The notes under the pieces are model-generated. The model made no database searches and had not been told where the DNA came from. It worked only from the letters and a program-made list of their open reading frames with translations. Positions 6,895-18,729 of a stretch of DNA of 20,165 nt are shown here, in pieces (position 1 is the stretch's first letter; every line of letters begins with the position of its first letter). The stretch is from a virus. Made by a program: the position numbers and the translations under genes. The stretch is from IMG/VR virus record IMGVR_UViG_3300009705_003114, positions 1 through 20,165 of that record, one strand, 5' to 3'.

Positions 6895-7083
6895 GTGAGC
6901 AAGTGTAGAAAATGTGACGAGACAGACCCAGAGCAATTCACTCCAAGTTACCAAAATCTTTGCAAGAATTGCCGGATGGTCATGGAGTTCCCAGAGCGGG
7001 AAGCCGATAAAGAAACCAAGAAACTAGGGGGTTTGGCGAATAAGTACTGGATCCCGCGCATATATTTCGACAAGGAAGAATGA
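6895..7083 (+). CDS. Small Cys4 zinc-ribbon protein
   Basis: From the GTG at 6895 the product is 62 residues with C4-x2-C7 and C23-x2-C26, a compact zinc-ribbon pattern, followed by a charged C-terminal tail. AAGGAG at 6884-6889, five bases upstream, decides this start. The frame is open back to 6799, but that part runs through the structured leader and lacks a ribosome site. The stop overlaps the integrase ATG as ATGA, so the two are translationally coupled. It could be an excisionase-like recombination directionality factor, a transcription factor or a nuclease accessory. Nothing beyond the zinc motif and position favours one. Its ribosome site can be hidden by pairing with 6847-6853, suggesting controlled translation of this gene and integrase. 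Confidence 0.65.
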   Translation: MSKCRKCDETDPEQFTPSYQNLCKNCRMVMEFPEREADKETKKLGGLANKYWIPRIYFDKEE

Positions 7084-8087
7084 AAATGATAGATTTGGAA
7101 TTGCGTCAAATCTCTGTGAGTGCAAATCACCATGGAGAGGTTATGAGAAATAGAAAAGGTAATACTACTTTTGCGTTTGCTGTAAACCAATGGCTAGAAA
7201 CGCCATCGAGAAACGGTAGAGACAAAGGTAAAAAGGATCACGGGTACGGAGAATTTTTTAAAAAAGCTTGGGGAAACAAGCAGATTGAAGATGTCAAAGA
7301 GCGCGATGTTGACAAGATGATCAGTAGTCTAAGATCAAAAACTGTAAAGAACGGCAGAAGAATGTCAGAGGGAGGCGTTAACAACTATGCCTCTGTCTAT
7401 AATGCCGTAATGAACTTTTCGGTGAATGAGCTAAAGATAGTAAGAAATTTCCCCAAGTGGTCAAAGCGTAAAGAAAGACGAAGAGAGTATTTTCCTCAAC
7501 CAGAGGTGATTAGTCGAATGCATGACGAATTAAAATCAATGGGTGGGCAAAACCCTCTTCGAGCAGAAATGCTTCTTCTTTGCTGGCATACGCAACTGCG
7601 TAATACGAATGTGACTAATCTGAAAATATCACAGGTTTCTGGTGATCTAAGCTTTATCACTATTGAGTCACATCACATGAAGAACGGTTTGCCATTTGAG
7701 AGACCGTTAAATTCTGATGCTAGAGCAGTCATTGAAAGAAACATTGAACGTGGTTACGCCTTGCAGCAAAAGTTCTCCTGGTTAGATCCTGTTGAATACG
7801 TTTTTGTGCAGGATGCCGGTAGATATATTGGGAAGCCTTTTGGTCGATCTGGTTTGGTTAATAGGCAATGGAGACTTGCGCGAGAACGTGCAGGAATACC
7901 TAGCGAATTTGTTTTCCATTCTATTCGACACGGAGCGGCATCAACATTAAGAAGAGAGGGCGTAAGTTTACCGGTGATCAGTACTTTGATGGGTCATTCC
8001 GATATGAAATCTACGCTCATTTATCAACATGTAACGAGTAACGAAAGCAGGGAAGCTTCGGATATTACAGCTTCGTTTAGTATTTAA
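7080..8087 (+). CDS. int: Tyrosine-family site-specific integrase
   Basis: This 335-residue protein has an N-terminal arm/SAM-like DNA-binding part (about 30-125) and a C-terminal catalytic domain with the full tyrosine recombinase set: R174 (in TQLRNTNVTNL), K201, H280-x-x-R283 (HSIRHG), H306 (GHSDMKST) and nucleophile Y315 (LIYQHV). It cuts and rejoins DNA between phage attP and a host tRNA-Gly gene. The tRNA-derived core lies 112 bp past its stop. The ATG overlaps the preceding stop; AAGGAA at 7073-7078 lies just upstream, and an in-frame ATG at 7086 is an alternative. Being last in the repressor-led operon suggests it is made with the lysogeny and recombination genes. A GCTGTAT/ATACAGC hairpin follows at 8092-8109, without a T-run. 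Confidence 0.95.
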   Translation: MKMIDLELRQISVSANHHGEVMRNRKGNTTFAFAVNQWLETPSRNGRDKGKKDHGYGEFFKKAWGNKQIEDVKERDVDKMISSLRSKTVKNGRRMSEGGVNNYASVYNAVMNFSVNELKIVRNFPKWSKRKERRREYFPQPEVISRMHDELKSMGGQNPLRAEMLLLCWHTQLRNTNVTNLKISQVSGDLSFITIESHHMKNGLPFERPLNSDARAVIERNIERGYALQQKFSWLDPVEYVFVQDAGRYIGKPFGRSGLVNRQWRLARERAGIPSEFVFHSIRHGAASTLRREGVSLPVISTLMGHSDMKSTLIYQHVTSNESREASDITASFSI

Positions 8088-9271: not shown

Positions 9272-9589
9272 CTACTTTTTCGACATCCAACTTGAAACTC
9301 CCATATAACCGCCGACGATTGAGGCGCAGGATATGTAGAACAAACCAAACAATTCACTTAATGCAGTGACTCGGTCAACGGCTACCATCGGGGTGAAAAG
9401 TACGGCAGTGAAAAAGACTATGGAAGCCATCGCCGCTGAAGCCATTCTTCTATGCGCTGTACTCTTTTCTTCAGACAGCTCCATATCGATAATCCTTTGA
9501 GCTTGATCCATCTCCAAGCTTGTGACATTCCCGTCATTATCTGTGTCAATACTTTTTGCATAGCTTTGAATCCTTTCTTCAATTGTCAT
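9272..9589 (-). CDS. Two-TM protein with EF-hand loop, holin candidate
   Basis: This 105-residue protein has a textbook EF-hand calcium loop at 15-26 (DTDNDGNVTSLE: Asp at 1, 3 and 5, Gly at 6, Val at 8, Glu at 12), flanked by helices. Two hydrophobic helices follow, at about 49-70 and 78-98, and the C-terminus is SKK. Size and two close spans fit class II-like holins. The ATG overlaps the stop of the giant gene as ATGA, so it is translated with the virion operon. Calcium-binding holins are not a family I can name with certainty. It might instead be a membrane protein ejected with the genome. Confidence 0.7.
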   Translation of the reverse strand: MTIEERIQSYAKSIDTDNDGNVTSLEMDQAQRIIDMELSEEKSTAHRRMASAAMASIVFFTAVLFTPMVAVDRVTALSELFGLFYISCASIVGGYMGVSSWMSKK

Positions 9590-12500
9590 TTTAACTGGCG
9601 ATATCGCTTGTTGAATCTGTCATAGAGAAGCTCGTTGTCGGTCTTTAGTTTTTTCTTTCTCTCTAGCAACCTTGCAGCGTAGTCTCCTGTCGCTGTATCA
9701 ATTGCAGATTCAACAGCCCTAATTTCCTTCCGGTTCTTCTTTAGCTTTTTGTCGGTCGCTTTTCGGTTGGCGTTCAGTTGAGTGTAGTACTGGCGAGAAC
9801 GATTCTTTGTTAGAGTTTCTCTACTCTGACTGTTCGCTGCGTCCCAACCATCCATCTCCTGACCCAGCTCCCTGCGATTATCGTAGTACTCGAACTGATC
9901 CTTGTATTCACTGGGGTTGTAATAAAAGCGACTCCATATTGGTATGTCAGTACCTTTCAATTCCTCACCTTTTGGAATCGCGGTCTTCTGAATAGTGTCT
10001 GCCACATCAGTACCAAACCGACCAAGACCTCCCAGAGCAAAATCAAAGATGTGCTGCAACCTATCGGGAGACATGTCGATAGCTCCGCTAACCTGTTGGG
10101 AGCCGCCAGTTAAAGAGTTGATAGCCTTAGCGAAACTCTTAAACCCTTCCATCGTGCTTCGCTTTGAGGCACCGTCAGAGCTTGATGGTTGGTCCGTATA
10201 AGGGGTGGGCATTACTATTGGTGAACCAAAGAAGTTTACGTTTCCTACTTGCTCTATGAAGAACGCTCCAACGTCAGGCGTTAATGTAATCGCTGCTTGG
10301 AAAGTATTACCTAGACTATCTGTATCGTCTTTAACGGCATGAAAGCCTCTAGGAGAGAAGTGGTGAAGAGTGACATTAAGTGCCTCAACAGCGGCTTGCT
10401 CTGGCTCTTTGGCACCCATTAGCTGCTCACCAATAAGGCGCCCCATGTTGTCAGCCCAACCCCATCCGTAAGGCAGGGGTACACCGAATGCCCAATCGCC
10501 ACCCATAAATGTTGCTGAAGTCTGGAGCTGGTAGGGGTTGTAATCGTTGTATTTGGATTCACCGTCTTCATCTTCATCAGCGAACATGAAGTTCATTATC
10601 GTCCTACTGATACCGAAGGCGACTAGCCCGAAGAACAATCGCCTGGTTGCCGCAATTCCCAAGAGCTTCGCTTTGTCTCCTGGTGCAGCGGCGCCTACCA
10701 GGGCGTCTTTAAGGTTGACGTTTCCTTGTATCGCGGCATTAAAGAACAAGTAGAGTGAATCAATCTGGCTGGAGTACTCTCCCTTTCGGTTGAAGTTAGT
10801 GGTTAAGTCTTTCGCGAGAGTAGCGGCTTCCTGTCGAGCTATACCGGCTTTTCTTGCCTCCATATAAGTAGACAGGCGTATTGCGTTTTCTGATGATTGG
10901 TTGAACGCCTCTACCCAATCAGTCGCAGCATCAAAGTACTTTCCGAATTTGACTCTCGTGTCGATAGCCGAAGGTATATTCAAGTTACCAATCTTTATAG
11001 GCTGTGGACCCAGCTCCTTCTCAAAGTCTTTTCTAAGCTCCTCCAGATCCTTGATAGTTGCCAAACCCGTAGGCGCACCATCAGCGATGTATTCGTCTAT
11101 GTATTTGAATATCTCTTTTTGCTTTTCGCTGTTTGGTTCTTTATTTCGCTCATGGTCGTAGTAAGCTTTGAACGAAGCTTTAAATCCTAAGAACACATTG
11201 GCGACTAAGTCCTTATCCTTAACCCTGCCACCGACTTTGTTTTGTTCAGCCAAGAGGAAAGCTAACCCTGTTTCGACATCCCTCATTGGGTTAACTAAAC
11301 CCCAGCTAGGGTTGTAATTAATGATCATCTTTCTTCTGAAGTTGTTAATCGCTCTTCCGGTTTTAAATATTCCGTCCAATACTTCGTTTCCGCTATTCAA
11401 TGTCATCGAATTAGCGTCATGTAGTTGGGCGTTTAAAACGGGGTCTCTAAACTCAATAAAGAAGGTCTGACCACCACGCTTAACTTGAACGAATCTTGGA
11501 AGGTTGGGGTACTCCAACATCTTGGCGTTTTGCATGTCTCTCAGAGGCATAGTCTCCCCTAACAGGTCTTCCTTAGACCCCTTGGGATACGGCGCTCTAA
11601 ACTTATTGTTGTATACCGTCCAACCCGTCCTCTGGTCTGTTGAGTCAAACCGCTCTACTAACTTTAGAAGGCGTTGGGCGACTACATTTTTTTCCGCTCG
11701 AATTATTTTTTCACCGGCATTCTTAAACGCCATTAGAAGGGGGTTCTCTGGTAGCGAGAGCCGACCTCTAGCCTTCATCGACTCTGGACCGGTGATGCTG
11801 AAACCTTTAGCCCCGCTTCCTCCAGGTACTATTGAATCTGCTGGCTCTCTAAACCCTCTAAGAGGAACATAGAACTCATAGGTTTCCTCCCAATCCCTTT
11901 TGGACTCTTCGTCCAACAGACCCTTATCGACCATGTTCTGTCGCATGTCATCGAGCATCTTGTAGACTTGTGTCGCTATCTCTTCGAACTGGCTTGCAGT
12001 ACCCGCTTCTTCTGCTGCGCTTAGAAGTTCCGCTGCCTCGGTATTTGATACACCGGATCCGTTATCTTGAAACCTTAACGGCGCCTCCTCAAGGATCTCT
12101 AACTTACCTTCAAGAGTTGTTGTGGTTGCTATGGATTCCGACTCTTCAATCGCTTTCTGAAGAGCTGCAATTGCAACCTCTCTTTTTTCCAGCTCTTGCT
12201 TTTTAATCTCAGCGTTACGCTCTGGAGCGTGTTTGGCTAAGAGATAAGCGCCAATTTGATCCGCGCTCAAACCATACTCTTTGGCTAAATCGGCAAGAGG
12301 TGTAATGTACTCTTCGCCAAAATCTTCCAACATCTTTTGAAGCTTGGAGTGCATTAGATTTTCTTGGTCTCTGAATGACTCTTCAGCACCCAACTTATCT
12401 TTACCAAGAGTTGCCGCCATCGAATTCTCTACGGTCTCCCACCTTTCAAACTTATCCTGTACGGCAGCTATAAGCTTTCTAGGGAAATACTTGGTTAGCC

Positions 12501-15500
12501 AGGTTGATGTCTGTCTTTCGGCTAAAACCTCATCGTTGAGATTGAAAGCAATTCCTGGCGTGTGCCTACCTTCAAGCTTCATGTAAAGGAAGTCATCAAC
12601 TTCGGGAAGGTTAGCCTTGTTCACGTTCTTTGCGATAACAAAGTTGCCGACTTGAATTACATCTTCAAAGGTTACAACTGGGTACTGGTCATCAAGCCTA
12701 TAGAAGTGGCTGTGCTTTCTAGGGTTCATAGATACCTGAGTCCACTCTGGATCATCTATGGCGTCTAAGAATGCCGCGAGGTTCTCTTCGTTAGTAGCTG
12801 GAACATAACCACCTTCTATCGTTGCAAATGTGGTCTTACTTTTTTTACCGGTGCCGACTCCAGCCGCTGCTTTTTGATTAACCCCAAAAACACCATTGGT
12901 CATCCTCAAGGTCTTGGCGTAACCCAGCCTTGTCCCAGCCGCTCCAGCGTTAGGGTTTACTCTGGGTTCATGGATAGTGACAACACTGGTTTTTTCGTCT
13001 GCTGATAACTGGTTGTTGTCGGGGTTGTTTGCCGGTATGTCTAGACGACCAGCAACCCTTTGACCAGGAGAAAGGTCAGCCGCATTGAAGAAGGTTTCTT
13101 TGCTAGGCTTTCCTGTCTTTTCTCTGCTTGTCTTTCTTAATGCGTTTATAGATTTCGCATCAGACGGGAGGGTGATTATTTTTTCAGCTTGCTCTCTGGT
13201 CAGAGACTGAACGAATCTGCCTTTCTCGGCTTGTATTTCGTTTAATTCTTGCGCGGTGATTTGGCGATCTATACGGGCTTGGACCGCGTTTTGTAGGTCC
13301 GGTTCTGGTGCTTGGGACGGTCTTGTTAACTGAGCTGGAGAAACTCCGGTATCATCTGTTCCTCTTCCGGCATCAGTAACTGTGTTGGGTCCAGAACCCT
13401 GTCGGGGTACGCCATTTCCAGATACGTCTCCCTGTCGATTTTTTTGTCTTTGAGAATCATATAGTCGAGTGTTGGGTCCATCCCAGGTTGGTGGTTGAAT
13501 CCTTTCGGCATGCTCATAGACTAGACTCCTTGCCTTGCTGATATCTATTTTGTTGTTTCGGTATTGCATCCATACCGATTCGACATAGTTTACGTTTTCT
13601 TCGTTGCTTTTGTAAGCAGGGCTGAACAATCCTCTAACAGCTTCCCACGTTATGCTTTGCATTTCTCTCGGCAAAACCTTTCGATCCTTAGCTGCTCGTC
13701 TGTAAGCCTCTTCGTAAATAGAGTACGTTCCGTTATGTCCCGTGACTGAACTATTTGAGGCTCCAGGTTGACCCTTTTCGTGTTGACCTCCAAAGTTATG
13801 CGCTACTTCTAAGGAGTTACCGGAAAGGGGCTTGAGTAATGAGGCAGCTACAGCGTGAGTGTCTATCGTCACAAATCCTGACTGTGACTTGGGATCAAAT
13901 ATATTGTTGTAAAAGTTTCTTACTTTATTAGCCGCACCCAGAGAAGTTGTTATGTTATCTTGAGCGCCGTTCCTAAGAACAGATACCGCCTTGGAAATCT
14001 CGTTCAAAGAACCCCACGCGACCTTTGAGTTAGAACCGTCAATGTTCTGAGCGTTCTTCAGCATTTTCCCTTCTGGGGATACAATTGGGTAGGAGCGGTC
14101 GTTATAAGTTTCGTCGTATGTCCTGATCCAAAATGCTGTTAAGCGGTTTTTTTCGATGTCATTGAGACTTTGGTCAATCCAGATTTCTTCCATTGACCTT
14201 GTGCCTATAGTTGCAAGCATCTCCTTGTTTTCTTTTTTAGCTTTAGCAGACCCTGAGAAGTAAATCTGTTTCGCTTTGGCTGACATCGATGCATCAAAGT
14301 CTTGATCAAATTTGTCGTGATAAACCTCCATCACTCTTCGACCAAGGTCTGCATTCATGTACCAATCTTTTTGCGGAGACAGGTTTGCTAGGACCGCTGA
14401 AGTTTGAGCTAGAGTTACTTGCTCGTTGCCGCGAGAATACTTTTTCGCCAAGTCATTAGCGATCTTATTGGCGCCAACGTACCAGAGCTTTGATCTTGCC
14501 CTAGTCTTTTTTGGGACTAGGTCGAACAAGTATAGGAGGTTTGCTTTTGCATGCTCGATAAGAGCTTCTGCCGCATCCGTGTCTTTCTTTATCGATTCCT
14601 GCTTTGTTAAGTTGGTGTACTTCTTAACTAGGATCATGTTCTTTGAGAACACAGGAGAGTCCACAAACGAATCGTAACTATTTACTAGAGTGTTGTTGAC
14701 AGGATCTTCGGTATTTCTGACGGCGGTAGGAAACCGAGTGCTAACCACCATCGATAAAAGGTCAGGCTCTCCGTTCATTTCTGAATTGATTTCAGCTATC
14801 AACTCAGGATTTGTGTGCCAATTCTCCCACGCTACACGATCTGCCTTCAGACCGTCGATAACAGCTTTAAGAGCATTGGCATCTTTGACGTCAACGCCGT
14901 ATTTGGACGCAACTTCTGGCTTCTTAGAAGCGCCTGTAATTGCGCTCAAATCTGCTGTTATCTCACGCTGTTTCTTGCTGACGATCTTCGACATCGCTGT
15001 GGCTGTCTGCATTGCGGAGTCATCAAATGCAAACATACTGTCTTGCTGACCGGCGCCTCCAGCATTCGGGTCAACAGCCTCGATAGCCTTCATCACGTTT
15101 ACAGCTTCGATAGCCTTAGAGCCGTCTATTAAAGCCTTTAGTCCGGCAGCTTGTAGTGCTGTGTTTCCTGGAGCGTTAAGGGCTACTGCTTCCGCTTCGG
15201 CGTCTGTGATTTGATCGTTACGATGGGCGGTAATGAGTTCATCCGATCCACCAGTTGCGATTGCGTAAGCCCGTTTGCCCGTTGCTCTTGCCAAAAGTCC
15301 TCGACTGTTTGCTTCTTCTTTGGAGAATTTTGTTGCTTTGAAGTAGTTGACATAATCTTTTACCTGCCCCTGTTCATCACGCAGATTTAATTCCGCATCC
15401 ATGATCTGTGCATCTTGTACGTTGAATCCATCAGCTTCTCGAAATACTTGGCTGAGAATAGTTTTTTCACCGCTCCGTTTTGCCAACTCGAATCTGTGGC

Positions 15501-18500
15501 GACCTGATATAATCTCTTTTCTACCGTCGTTACGCTCCCATACGAGAATGGGACCAACGCCTGTGCTGTCAAACGTCCCACCTAGACGCTCAACTACACC
15601 CTGATCGTTAGCTCCTGTCTTAAACTGTGGAACATCCTGAGAAAGTGACAGCTCATCAACGGGTAGTTGAATCGGCTGCAATCCCTCAACGCTGCTTTGA
15701 GTTTCCCGTACCGTTTCTTCTTCACTAGAGCCGTCTTCTTTGGTATCTGCTATCTGTTGCTCTAACTCTCTCTTTTGTTGTTCAGCATTTGCCTCAGTTT
15801 CATCGTCTGCCAAACCTTCATTAGCGCGAGAAGTGTTAGGTCCATCAACGCGACTATCATTGGGCGGTATCTCATCAAGCCCTTGTTGGTTCTCGAACTG
15901 TTCTTTTACTGATAAAGTTCGTCCATCACCGTCCCCGTCTTGGTTGTCGCCCTGTCCCGCCACTCCGGTATCGGTTCCCCCTTGTCCACCGCCTTCTTCG
16001 CTATCGCGTCCAGATTCTCCGGTGTCAGATGCTTCATCGCCTCTATCGACGGTAGGTGGTTGAACGTCTCCTTGTACTTCTGCACGTTCTCCGTCAGCGG
16101 CGTCCTTGCTTTGAGTGTTACTTGCATTTCTTCTCTCCGTTAAAGACCTTGAATCTGCATGAATATCTTGCATCATCTTATAGGTTTGAGGCGCGAATTT
16201 CTTGAGCAGCTTCGGGTTGTTCGTGAATACGGCGCCAGCTTGCGCGAACAATTCTATCCGCATCATTTTCGCCCCAGCCTCTAAGTTACCACCTACTTGG
16301 TTCTCTAGGTAATTGGCGAGAGTGTCGAAAGGGTACTTAAAAACCTTCCCAAGATCATTGTCAGCGGCATAGGCGCCATACATCTCGCCTGTAAGAGAGT
16401 CTAGGTCCATCCTTATCTCGCCATCAACCCTAGTTAGCTCAACCCGCATGCCAAGCATTTCAGTGCTAAATTGTTTAGCTGCGTCAAGAGCGTGGTACAG
16501 TTCGTGGGTTACCGCAAACAGGAGCTGTTTTTTAGCCACAGGGTTGGTCGCTGCTTCTCGGATAAAAGCCTTGTTAACAACGACTGTGTTGGTGCTGTTG
16601 CTGTAAGCCGCCGGTACATAAGTCGGGTTGCCTTCAGCCGGAAGTCCGTCAAAGCCATAGAACCCGCTCACCGAATCTAGTGCCGCTCTTGGAAGTCCTC
16701 TGCGTATAGCTTCAACTAGCACTGATGTGAAAGTTTTTAATTCGGGAGAGTTCTCCACATCGGTGGCGCCAAATGACTCTACAATACTTAGTAAGTCATC
16801 ATCGCTTTGCTTGCCTCCAACAGTGTCTTTGGGTGCTGTCGATCCGACTCCAGAGAGTTTTTGTACTAACGCTCCAAATGTCGGCATTCCTTGCTGAGTA
16901 ATGCTGTCATCGCCGTTTGGCTGCGGTGTCGGTCCTGCCGTCTGGTTGTTTATATCAGCCACTTGCTGATCAATAGGGGCGTCTGTTGGGTCGAAATCAC
17001 CAGCAACAGGTAAGGTAGAAGTGAGGTCTCCAGGGCTTTGATTAACGATCCCAGACGCAGCTACATCTAACCCATCCGTAGGTTCGTTGAATCTTGCCAG
17101 CTCTTTTTCTAGTCCGGTAAGATCGGCGAATCGGTCTTCTACCACAGGGCTGCTTGCTTGCTCTTGGGGAGCGTCCTGTTGAACTAGCTCGTAAGTAGCA
17201 ACCTCTCCTGTTCGGTCAACAATAATTCTGCCTTCCTCTTCCAGAACCTCTAAAATTTCTAGCTGCTCTCCTCTATCTATACCGTTAGCTTCCGCTAAGT
17301 TTTCTAAGGATTTTTCTCCTGTTACGAACGGCATATTTTCTACCGTGTTCTGAAGCTTAATTTCCATAGCTTCCGGCAGAGGTTCTCTCCCTGGGTTATT
17401 CTGTGCGTCTTCGTAAGCTTCAGATGCCCTTTGCCTTTGCTCTAATATTATCCGCTCCCTCTCTCTCTCCTGCTCTACGCTGAAAGTTGGGGTTTCTGGA
17501 TCAGTAGGTGGAGCTGTGGCATCAGGGGGTGGAGCTGTGCCATCAGTAGGTGGAGCTGTGGGAGGACCATCTCCCTCATCGTCATCTTCCGCAATCAAAG
17601 GGTTTTCGCGAAGTACTGTAGGACCGGCAGCGGCACCTGTAATGCCTCCCATGAAAGTCCCGCCGACAGCTCCTGCTGCCATTGCATGGATATAGGAAGA
17701 GATAGCATCTTCGCCAAACATGTATCCCTCAAACTTTTCCTGGTCCTCTTCTGAGAGATTTTTGGACGCCCACTTAACGCCTAGACGAGACAGCCCCTCT
17801 TGGGCTACTTCTGTAACGCCTTCCAGTACTCCTGATTTAAGAGCCTCTGAACCCACTGCTTGAAGTCTTGTTTCTGGGGTAATAACACGGTCAAACATTT
17901 TCCTGATTGTGCTGCGCTCATTCAGAGCTTCCTCTGCTAGGTCGTTTCTGATTGCGTCCAAAGATTCGTCAGGAAACATTTTTCTAAATGCCCTAAACGG
18001 AACACCGATAAGGTCCATCGCACCCATAGCGATGCCAGCACTAAAAGCTGTCGCAGGGTCTTCTAGTCCTGTTTCTTCAACAATGCGACCGAAGCTTTCA
18101 CCGACTCCAGCTCCTGCGCTAAAGGCAGCACCTCCCGTTACAGTGCCTATCTTGCTGTATTTTTTAGCAACAAGACCAACGTAACGCTTTTGAGACTCTC
18201 TCAGAACCTGATTCTCGGCTACGCCTTGAGCAGCGTCTTGCATCCTGTCTCTCATGGATTTCTTTATCGCGGCAGTAACCGCTACTTTTGCAGTTACCCC
18301 TGCAGCAGCTCCTCCAAATCCCCCTGTTCCGATCATCCCAACCATGCTGGGAACCAGGTTACCCGCAGTAAAAGACAGCCAATCAGTAAAGTCGGTGAAC
18401 TGGTCAACCCACCCGTCTTCTCCCCACTCATCTTCAAAGGCTGTTCTTGGTGCGTACTGGGAAGCTTCATCCATTTGCTGACGGTAATAATCTAAGCCGT

Positions 18501-18729
18501 CATCGACCCATTCTCTATTACCTACAGCGGAACCGACCGCTGCTTTTAGTCCACCAGCGAGAGCTTGCGTCTGATCAACGCCAGACTTGATGCCTTTAAC
18601 AAACTCGAAACTGTCATCCTCTTCCTCTTCGGGGAGAGTGAAGTCTCTGGGTTCGCTGCTTTTCTTGTAGAACGGATCTGTATCGTATGGTTCTGGGCTT
18701 AGATCGTTTTTGCTGTTAAAAAATGCCAT
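9586..18729 (-). CDS. Giant multidomain polyvalent protein (zincin, ParB-like, glycosylase-like, LPD domains), probably ejected with the genome
   Basis: This protein has 3047 residues. The acidic N-terminus is followed by Gly/Ala-rich hydrophobic segments (about 120-155, 195-245, 345-370), a Pro/Thr/Asp linker (385-415) and a possible winged helix (465-520). A zincin metallopeptidase has HELYH at 742-746 and candidate third ligand E826. A ParB/sulfiredoxin-like domain has GRHRFELAKR at 1076-1085. A DUF7178-like, possibly HhH-glycosylase-like, domain has LSPQKDW at 1450-1456 and TIDTHA with D1623. Then come an LPD-type motif (KHSHFY, 2005-2010), an LPD38-like region around W2476 and a basic coiled-coil tail (2970-3047). 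This assembly matches phage 'polyvalent proteins' thought to be packaged and delivered with DNA to counter host defences. Two disordered linkers (868-942, 1738-1802) contain probable nested genes. Domain names are by motif recognition. Confidence 0.85.
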   Translation of the reverse strand: MAFFNSKNDLSPEPYDTDPFYKKSSEPRDFTLPEEEEDDSFEFVKGIKSGVDQTQALAGGLKAAVGSAVGNREWVDDGLDYYRQQMDEASQYAPRTAFEDEWGEDGWVDQFTDFTDWLSFTAGNLVPSMVGMIGTGGFGGAAAGVTAKVAVTAAIKKSMRDRMQDAAQGVAENQVLRESQKRYVGLVAKKYSKIGTVTGGAAFSAGAGVGESFGRIVEETGLEDPATAFSAGIAMGAMDLIGVPFRAFRKMFPDESLDAIRNDLAEEALNERSTIRKMFDRVITPETRLQAVGSEALKSGVLEGVTEVAQEGLSRLGVKWASKNLSEEDQEKFEGYMFGEDAISSYIHAMAAGAVGGTFMGGITGAAAGPTVLRENPLIAEDDDEGDGPPTAPPTDGTAPPPDATAPPTDPETPTFSVEQERERERIILEQRQRASEAYEDAQNNPGREPLPEAMEIKLQNTVENMPFVTGEKSLENLAEANGIDRGEQLEILEVLEEEGRIIVDRTGEVATYELVQQDAPQEQASSPVVEDRFADLTGLEKELARFNEPTDGLDVAASGIVNQSPGDLTSTLPVAGDFDPTDAPIDQQVADINNQTAGPTPQPNGDDSITQQGMPTFGALVQKLSGVGSTAPKDTVGGKQSDDDLLSIVESFGATDVENSPELKTFTSVLVEAIRRGLPRAALDSVSGFYGFDGLPAEGNPTYVPAAYSNSTNTVVVNKAFIREAATNPVAKKQLLFAVTHELYHALDAAKQFSTEMLGMRVELTRVDGEIRMDLDSLTGEMYGAYAADNDLGKVFKYPFDTLANYLENQVGGNLEAGAKMMRIELFAQAGAVFTNNPKLLKKFAPQTYKMMQDIHADSRSLTERRNASNTQSKDAADGERAEVQGDVQPPTVDRGDEASDTGESGRDSEEGGGQGGTDTGVAGQGDNQDGDGDGRTLSVKEQFENQQGLDEIPPNDSRVDGPNTSRANEGLADDETEANAEQQKRELEQQIADTKEDGSSEEETVRETQSSVEGLQPIQLPVDELSLSQDVPQFKTGANDQGVVERLGGTFDSTGVGPILVWERNDGRKEIISGRHRFELAKRSGEKTILSQVFREADGFNVQDAQIMDAELNLRDEQGQVKDYVNYFKATKFSKEEANSRGLLARATGKRAYAIATGGSDELITAHRNDQITDAEAEAVALNAPGNTALQAAGLKALIDGSKAIEAVNVMKAIEAVDPNAGGAGQQDSMFAFDDSAMQTATAMSKIVSKKQREITADLSAITGASKKPEVASKYGVDVKDANALKAVIDGLKADRVAWENWHTNPELIAEINSEMNGEPDLLSMVVSTRFPTAVRNTEDPVNNTLVNSYDSFVDSPVFSKNMILVKKYTNLTKQESIKKDTDAAEALIEHAKANLLYLFDLVPKKTRARSKLWYVGANKIANDLAKKYSRGNEQVTLAQTSAVLANLSPQKDWYMNADLGRRVMEVYHDKFDQDFDASMSAKAKQIYFSGSAKAKKENKEMLATIGTRSMEEIWIDQSLNDIEKNRLTAFWIRTYDETYNDRSYPIVSPEGKMLKNAQNIDGSNSKVAWGSLNEISKAVSVLRNGAQDNITTSLGAANKVRNFYNNIFDPKSQSGFVTIDTHAVAASLLKPLSGNSLEVAHNFGGQHEKGQPGASNSSVTGHNGTYSIYEEAYRRAAKDRKVLPREMQSITWEAVRGLFSPAYKSNEENVNYVESVWMQYRNNKIDISKARSLVYEHAERIQPPTWDGPNTRLYDSQRQKNRQGDVSGNGVPRQGSGPNTVTDAGRGTDDTGVSPAQLTRPSQAPEPDLQNAVQARIDRQITAQELNEIQAEKGRFVQSLTREQAEKIITLPSDAKSINALRKTSREKTGKPSKETFFNAADLSPGQRVAGRLDIPANNPDNNQLSADEKTSVVTIHEPRVNPNAGAAGTRLGYAKTLRMTNGVFGVNQKAAAGVGTGKKSKTTFATIEGGYVPATNEENLAAFLDAIDDPEWTQVSMNPRKHSHFYRLDDQYPVVTFEDVIQVGNFVIAKNVNKANLPEVDDFLYMKLEGRHTPGIAFNLNDEVLAERQTSTWLTKYFPRKLIAAVQDKFERWETVENSMAATLGKDKLGAEESFRDQENLMHSKLQKMLEDFGEEYITPLADLAKEYGLSADQIGAYLLAKHAPERNAEIKKQELEKREVAIAALQKAIEESESIATTTTLEGKLEILEEAPLRFQDNGSGVSNTEAAELLSAAEEAGTASQFEEIATQVYKMLDDMRQNMVDKGLLDEESKRDWEETYEFYVPLRGFREPADSIVPGGSGAKGFSITGPESMKARGRLSLPENPLLMAFKNAGEKIIRAEKNVVAQRLLKLVERFDSTDQRTGWTVYNNKFRAPYPKGSKEDLLGETMPLRDMQNAKMLEYPNLPRFVQVKRGGQTFFIEFRDPVLNAQLHDANSMTLNSGNEVLDGIFKTGRAINNFRRKMIINYNPSWGLVNPMRDVETGLAFLLAEQNKVGGRVKDKDLVANVFLGFKASFKAYYDHERNKEPNSEKQKEIFKYIDEYIADGAPTGLATIKDLEELRKDFEKELGPQPIKIGNLNIPSAIDTRVKFGKYFDAATDWVEAFNQSSENAIRLSTYMEARKAGIARQEAATLAKDLTTNFNRKGEYSSQIDSLYLFFNAAIQGNVNLKDALVGAAAPGDKAKLLGIAATRRLFFGLVAFGISRTIMNFMFADEDEDGESKYNDYNPYQLQTSATFMGGDWAFGVPLPYGWGWADNMGRLIGEQLMGAKEPEQAAVEALNVTLHHFSPRGFHAVKDDTDSLGNTFQAAITLTPDVGAFFIEQVGNVNFFGSPIVMPTPYTDQPSSSDGASKRSTMEGFKSFAKAINSLTGGSQQVSGAIDMSPDRLQHIFDFALGGLGRFGTDVADTIQKTAIPKGEELKGTDIPIWSRFYYNPSEYKDQFEYYDNRRELGQEMDGWDAANSQSRETLTKNRSRQYYTQLNANRKATDKKLKKNRKEIRAVESAIDTATGDYAARLLERKKKLKTDNELLYDRFNKRYRQLK
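13326..13517 (-). CDS. Probable gene nested in +1 frame inside the giant gene (1)
   Basis: A 63-residue frame begins MSMPKGFNHQPGMDPTLDY and reads like a folded small phage protein, with balanced hydrophobic, charged and aromatic residues throughout (MILKDKK, TYLEMAYPDRVL, EEEQMIPEFLQL). AAGGAG at 13526-13531 is eight bases before the ATG, an optimal ribosome site. In the giant frame the same DNA (residues 1738-1802) encodes Gly/Thr/Asp/Gln-rich, disorder-type sequence and starts right where the DUF7178-like domain ends. Codon meaning therefore looks invested in the nested frame. Function is unknown; an early-evolved structural accessory is possible. Translation is not proven. Confidence 0.55.
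   Translation of the reverse strand: MSMPKGFNHQPGMDPTLDYMILKDKKIDRETYLEMAYPDRVLDPTQLLMPEEEQMIPEFLQLS
15906..16127 (-). CDS. Probable gene nested in +1 frame inside the giant gene (2)
   Basis: A 73-residue frame starts MQVTLKARTPLTENVQKYKE and continues as a plausible helical protein (LPSIEAMKHLTPENLDAIAKKA in part, then EPIPEWRDR and a VMDELYQ end). GGAG at 16135-16138 lies seven bases before the ATG. The overlapped giant-frame stretch (868-942) is a Gly/Asp/Glu/Gln run between the zincin and ParB-like domains. Same +1 offset, same linker context and equally good ribosome site as the other nested frame, which makes chance less likely. No family is recognised. Confidence 0.5.
   Translation of the reverse strand: MQVTLKARTPLTENVQKYKETFNHLPSIEAMKHLTPENLDAIAKKAVDKGEPIPEWRDRATTKTGTVMDELYQ
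17501..17563 (-). repeat. Three tandem 21-bp repeats in the giant gene
   Basis: Units at 17501-17521, 17522-17542 and 17543-17563 share TCAGnnGGTGGAGCTGTG with few differences. On the coding strand they give a seven-residue Pro/Thr/Asp/Ala repeat (TAPPTDG-like) in a flexible linker after the last hydrophobic N-terminal segment. A typical in-frame slippage repeat. Confidence 0.85.

Follow-up and report, generated by a model that had tools for sequence, protein, structure and literature searches.

In a virus of the IMG/VR collection (record IMGVR_UViG_3300009705_003114; the window is the whole stretch analysed, positions 1 to 20,165 of that record), a giant gene resembling those of phage polyvalent proteins very probably harbors a genuine conserved overlapping gene, called here nested gene A, that would be initiated internally and give a separate product of 73–78 aa (Table 1). 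An overlapping gene at this place had been proposed in a preliminary description made from the letters alone, and the proposal is now supported by homologues, by suppressed synonymous change in the host frame and by a start codon with a Shine-Dalgarno sequence in all 28 distinct copies. Since dozens of related phages retain nested gene A, the same DNA appears to give two proteins, which current annotations do not show; from these comparisons we infer that it is translated. As far as searched, nested gene A is undescribed: literature searches, with many journals outside their coverage, returned no account of nested genes in polyvalent genes. On this reading, a polyvalent gene has kept a small protein within it across a diverse group of phages; genes of this kind are believed to be injected when infection occurs, and the linkers of such giants are commonly dismissed as filler.

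Table 1. Features of the giant gene and of the genes nested in it (positions in the window)
Feature	Position	Strand	Basis or remark
Host gene, giant ORF of 3047 aa, polyvalent-protein-like	9586..18729	minus	zincin HExxH, ParB-like, DUF7178, LPD38
HELYH (HExxH), zincin-like domain, 5' of nested gene A	16492..16506	minus	sequence motif
Shine-Dalgarno GGAG	16135..16138	minus	7 nt 5' of the nested gene A ATG
Nested gene A, probable overlapping ORF of 73 codons	15906..16127 (stop codon included)	minus	frame +1 of the giant ORF; homologues, synonymous suppression
ParB-like region and conserved stretch after it, giant aa 1010–1330	14740..15702	minus	downstream of the linker
Nested gene B, conserved +1-frame ORF, 56 aa (MSTTSKQQNS...)	15183..15353	minus	inside the ParB-like region

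The giant gene and the nested frame

The giant ORF has Pfam matches to DUF7178 (E 1.2e-22) and to LPD38 (E 1.7e-28), the latter an LPD domain typical of phage polyvalent proteins, and a DarB-like PHROG match. Its zincin-like assignment is by motif and position only, Pfam giving no zincin match, and its ParB label is based on the motif GRHRFELAKR; a check for a DdrB-like ParB domain found the motif ISGRHRFELAKR visible in the giant and, at E <= 0.01, no match to ParB in Pfam. The ParB-like stretch shares 44–55% identity with the retrieved loci L005–L022 and 51–52% with Vibrio and Shewanella phages. The preliminary description had placed nested gene A between zincin and ParB-like domains, in frame +1, with an ATG and a GGAG 7 nt ahead of it, and had called the giant frame across it a low-complexity run of Gly, Asp, Glu and Gln; coordinates, signals, placement and composition were all verified, the ORF lying on the minus strand after the HELYH motif and before the ParB-like region. 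Elsewhere in the window, an ORF on the plus strand (7080–8087) is tyrosine recombinase/integrase-like by eye, which suggests a temperate phage.

The length of the nested frame is not evidence of a gene. When the giant gene was recoded synonymously with its own codon usage retained, the longest +1 ORF starting with ATG averaged 84 codons and reached at least 73 codons in 70% of trials, +1 ORFs of at least 63 codons numbered 1.7 on average per recoding, and 33% of recodings left the region of nested gene A itself free of stops over 73 codons, +1 stop codons being rare there because of the linker composition. Longer antisense ORFs also occur inside the giant gene (107 aa at 15740–16063, for example). 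Length was thus dropped as an argument, longer ORFs being expected by chance, and the +1-frame figures fit a functionless frame that is open simply by the lack of +1 stops in a Gly/Asp/Glu-rich linker. It is conservation, not single-sequence statistics, that raises nested gene A above chance: protein, start and Shine-Dalgarno sequence are kept in 28 distinct relatives, synonymous change is suppressed, and similarity in the nested frame stands far above that of recoded sequences. The chance frame is refuted by these conservation tests, and the probability left to it is very small.

Relatives of nested gene A

When the nested protein was first used as a query, three matches came back, each a coincidental seed match in an unrelated gene (two of them in a capsid-like protein). 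Patterns taken from the nested protein or from adjacent stretches of the giant matched by chance or led to sequences related in the ParB-like region but carrying another linker. Neither the zincin part nor the N-terminal part of the giant, nor the gene upstream, led to any close relative, and no genome contigs containing the linker region were found. An unbiased set was picked by the C-terminal LPD38 part of the giant alone, independent of the linker: all nine of the contigs so fetched that include the zincin region encode the nested protein, at 40–51% identity, in the +1 frame of the giant that each carries, and the nine loci comprise six distinct proteins. A profile built from the LPD38-fetched loci led to further homologues in IMG/VR and on one contig of a Flavobacteriales MAG, giving a family of 28 distinct proteins of 73–78 aa. 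The search for homologues that the preliminary description had called for was thus borne out in IMG/VR and in one MAG; named phage records gave nothing or chance-level matches, so that the known relatives all come from IMG/VR contigs and the MAG contig. Among 395 bacterial genomes from the phylum to which the MAG belongs, the only match was the MAG itself.

The position of the nested gene is conserved too. It lies fully inside a homologous giant ORF, on the same strand and at an offset of +1, in all 28 distinct loci, and in 27 distinct giants it starts 122–134 codons past HExxH, the sequence of the 28th locus (L083) beginning so near the nested gene that HExxH falls outside it. Nested gene A and the zincin region are found together in 70 of 70 loci, a tally biased by retrieval since most loci from L046 on came through the nested protein. 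The copy in the window has no close relative, the nearest showing 45% identity over the full length.

Evidence for coding and for internal initiation

The alignment of the nested proteins is nearly gapless, with invariant residues M1, Y18, H24, E29, A43, A46, P52, W56, R59 and D69. Similarity was compared with a null in which the proteins of both giants were held fixed and synonymous codons were redrawn (14 pairs, 300 nulls each): the nested frame was more similar than the null in 14 of 14 pairs, with z values of 8–13 that are not probabilities because the pairs share ancestry and are not independent, and none of the 300 nulls attained the observed score. Between the window and its relatives, nested identity is 34–45% against 12–14% under host-synonymous recoding (z 7.8–9.7), and identity in the giant frame over the same stretch is just 21–29%. 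Additionally, the ratio of observed to expected synonymous change in the giant frame drops to 0.13 within nested gene A, compared to 0.85 upstream and 0.81 downstream, in line with the reduced synonymous variation that the preliminary description had named as a check. None of the outcomes listed there as refuting the gene was observed. A scan of the whole gene across 26 giants has its sole windows below 0.5 at 15946–16125, in one deep dip.

Synonymous suppression by itself fits coding and a nucleotide element alike, and a conserved RNA or DNA element (a structure or a binding site) might have kept the nested frame as a by-product. The pattern of variation speaks against this. In the flanking sequence, differences at giant codon positions 1, 2 and 3 number 114, 67 and 296, the third being the most variable, whereas within the overlap they number 980, 704 and 532, the first being the most variable and the third the least. 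This is the codon periodicity of the nested gene itself, whose own third position is the one that varies most. Identity of the nested amino acids is far over the null, the dip is bounded by the nested start, its Shine-Dalgarno sequence and the nested stop, and the RNA stability of the window sequence is like that of shuffles (z -0.47), no RNA structure having been found. A nucleotide element as the cause is extremely improbable.

A separate start was weighed against a programmed +1 frameshift, which would yield a truncated giant that ends after the zincin domain and carries the nested sequence as a tail. The nested frame is indeed the +1 frame of the host, and Shine-Dalgarno-like sequences are able to stimulate +1 shifts, as in prfB. 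However, all 28 distinct homologues have kept an initiator codon (24 ATG and 4 GTG), each with a Shine-Dalgarno sequence at 5–10 nt, against a background of 284 in 3708 (7.7%) for the other +1-frame ATG and GTG codons of the same giants. In several relatives (L050–L052), moreover, a stop in the nested frame lies two codons ahead of the ATG and thus leaves almost no space for a shift site. The frameshift is accordingly highly improbable, and internal initiation is retained as the reading of the start signals.

Both frames are under constraint across the overlap, since the giant frame, too, is conserved beyond what the nested protein would lead one to expect (z 4–9). The two frames differ in how they tolerate recoding: when the nested gene is recoded synonymously the giant frame stays open in 0–1% of cases, and when the giant is recoded the nested frame stays open in 14–40%. 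This asymmetry would fit overprinting of a pre-existing linker (overprinting is reviewed in PMC8227390).

The product and its possible role

The product of nested gene A is predicted to be helical. The AlphaFold2 models, built on 17 sequences (pLDDT 71.9) and on 27 (pLDDT 77.4), have four or five short helices. Searches of Pfam, NCBIfam and PHROG gave isolated weak matches, none common to more than two of 27 members, and structure and fold searches of PDB and BFVD gave no credible relative. Two identities were considered and rejected: phrog_10510 (69 aa, unknown function), which matches the copy in the window weakly (E 0.0078 over 17 residues) and only one of the 27 members, and an Rz1-like lysis lipoprotein, as no aligned member has a cysteine and thus a lipobox.

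With no credible family or fold relative, the function of the product is read from position only. In the proposed mechanism, ribosomes would start internally on the giant mRNA at the nested ATG or GTG with its own Shine-Dalgarno sequence and make a separate helical protein of 73–78 aa in frame +1, and in the giant frame these bases would encode a disordered linker that follows the zincin-like protease domain. A zincin-like domain has been proposed to process polyvalent proteins (Iyer et al., 2017; PMC5512222). The nested product might then act with the polyvalent protein, for instance by chaperoning or inhibiting the neighboring zincin-like protease prior to packaging into the virion, and the overlap would keep partner and module co-inherited. 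That the product is such a working partner of the surrounding protein is a tentative suggestion, the one favored here though at less than even chances; the tie could be to the zincin domain specifically or to the whole backbone of the giant gene.

An independent protein for host takeover or counter-defence, with the linker as mere storage space and no relation to the domains of the giant, is no less probable than a chaperone or inhibitor, and we regard it as a serious possibility, if somewhat short of even chances. Small phage proteins frequently act on the host, and no family, fold or gene neighbor indicates a partner role. On the other hand, an independent effector ought to be freely mobile, whereas every one of the 28 homologues is nested, 27 of them demonstrably at the same spot, and phage records and IMG/VR matches contain no stand-alone homologue.

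Other alternative-frame candidates

Nested gene B, about 550 bases downstream of nested gene A, makes a good case on sequence grounds for a second conserved nested gene. Homologues are present in L005–L022, in Vibrio phages 1.211.A and 1.183.O and in Shewanella phage X14, the three named phages carrying it unannotated. Its similarity exceeds the null with z 4.8–8.2, and the observed-to-expected synonymous ratio is 0.33–0.63 over host codons 0–50, compared to mostly 0.8–1.0 in the near flanks. The case is less clean than that of nested gene A because host identity over nested gene B is high (46–72%). By contrast, the first nested ORF of the preliminary description (13326–13517, minus strand), said there to follow an identical logic, has no homologue among the fetched loci and no synonymous dip (0.81–0.96, with thin homologous coverage), and the parallel is unsupported.

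An all-against-all comparison covered 518 alternative-frame ORFs. A third candidate cluster of conserved +1-frame ORFs occurs in ten relatives (for example L024:8340–8474, L030:8022–8180 and L069:8101–8358) and not in the window; it lies close to where the C-terminal region begins, with a nested identity of 0.52, a host identity of 0.44 and a synonymous ratio of 0.34. In the window, the giant gene also shows a mild synonymous drop at 14146–14385 (minus strand; 0.57–0.68), which may come from misaligned heterogeneous segments, and a weaker one at 11626–11745 (minus strand; 0.67–0.69).

A broader and more speculative idea, which we consider rather improbable, is that module-linked nested genes are a rule in injected polyvalent giants (nested gene A with the zincin linker, nested gene B with the ParB-like region, and probably others), each encoding in cis a partner of its own module such as a chaperone, an inhibitor or an immunity factor. 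If true, domain shuffling between phages would carry effector and partner together. As nested gene B is present in cultured Vibrio and Shewanella phages, the general question is open to bench testing now.

Comparison with known systems

Nested overlapping genes are known from phages, as in Rz1 within Rz of lambda and E within D of phiX174, and few well-supported ones are known in large dsDNA phages. Gene callers reject overlaps that large, and such genes are therefore easily overlooked. Nested gene A resembles Rz1/Rz and E/D in that a small protein would be encoded on the same strand, in an alternative frame, fully inside another gene and with its own start, the pair being co-conserved. Unlike in those pairs, the host here is a polyvalent gene of 2400–3100 codons and the overlap falls in a disordered linker between domains; the lipoprotein feature of Rz1 is likewise absent from the product. 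The giant itself is similar to the polyvalent proteins described by Iyer et al. (2017; PMC5512222) in joining several domains in a single giant polypeptide, among them a zincin-like metallopeptidase, LPD38 and a putative ParB-like region. A text search of that article gave no occurrence of 'overlap', and, unlike the polyvalent proteins treated there, nested gene A would add to the giant a separate protein, read in another frame.
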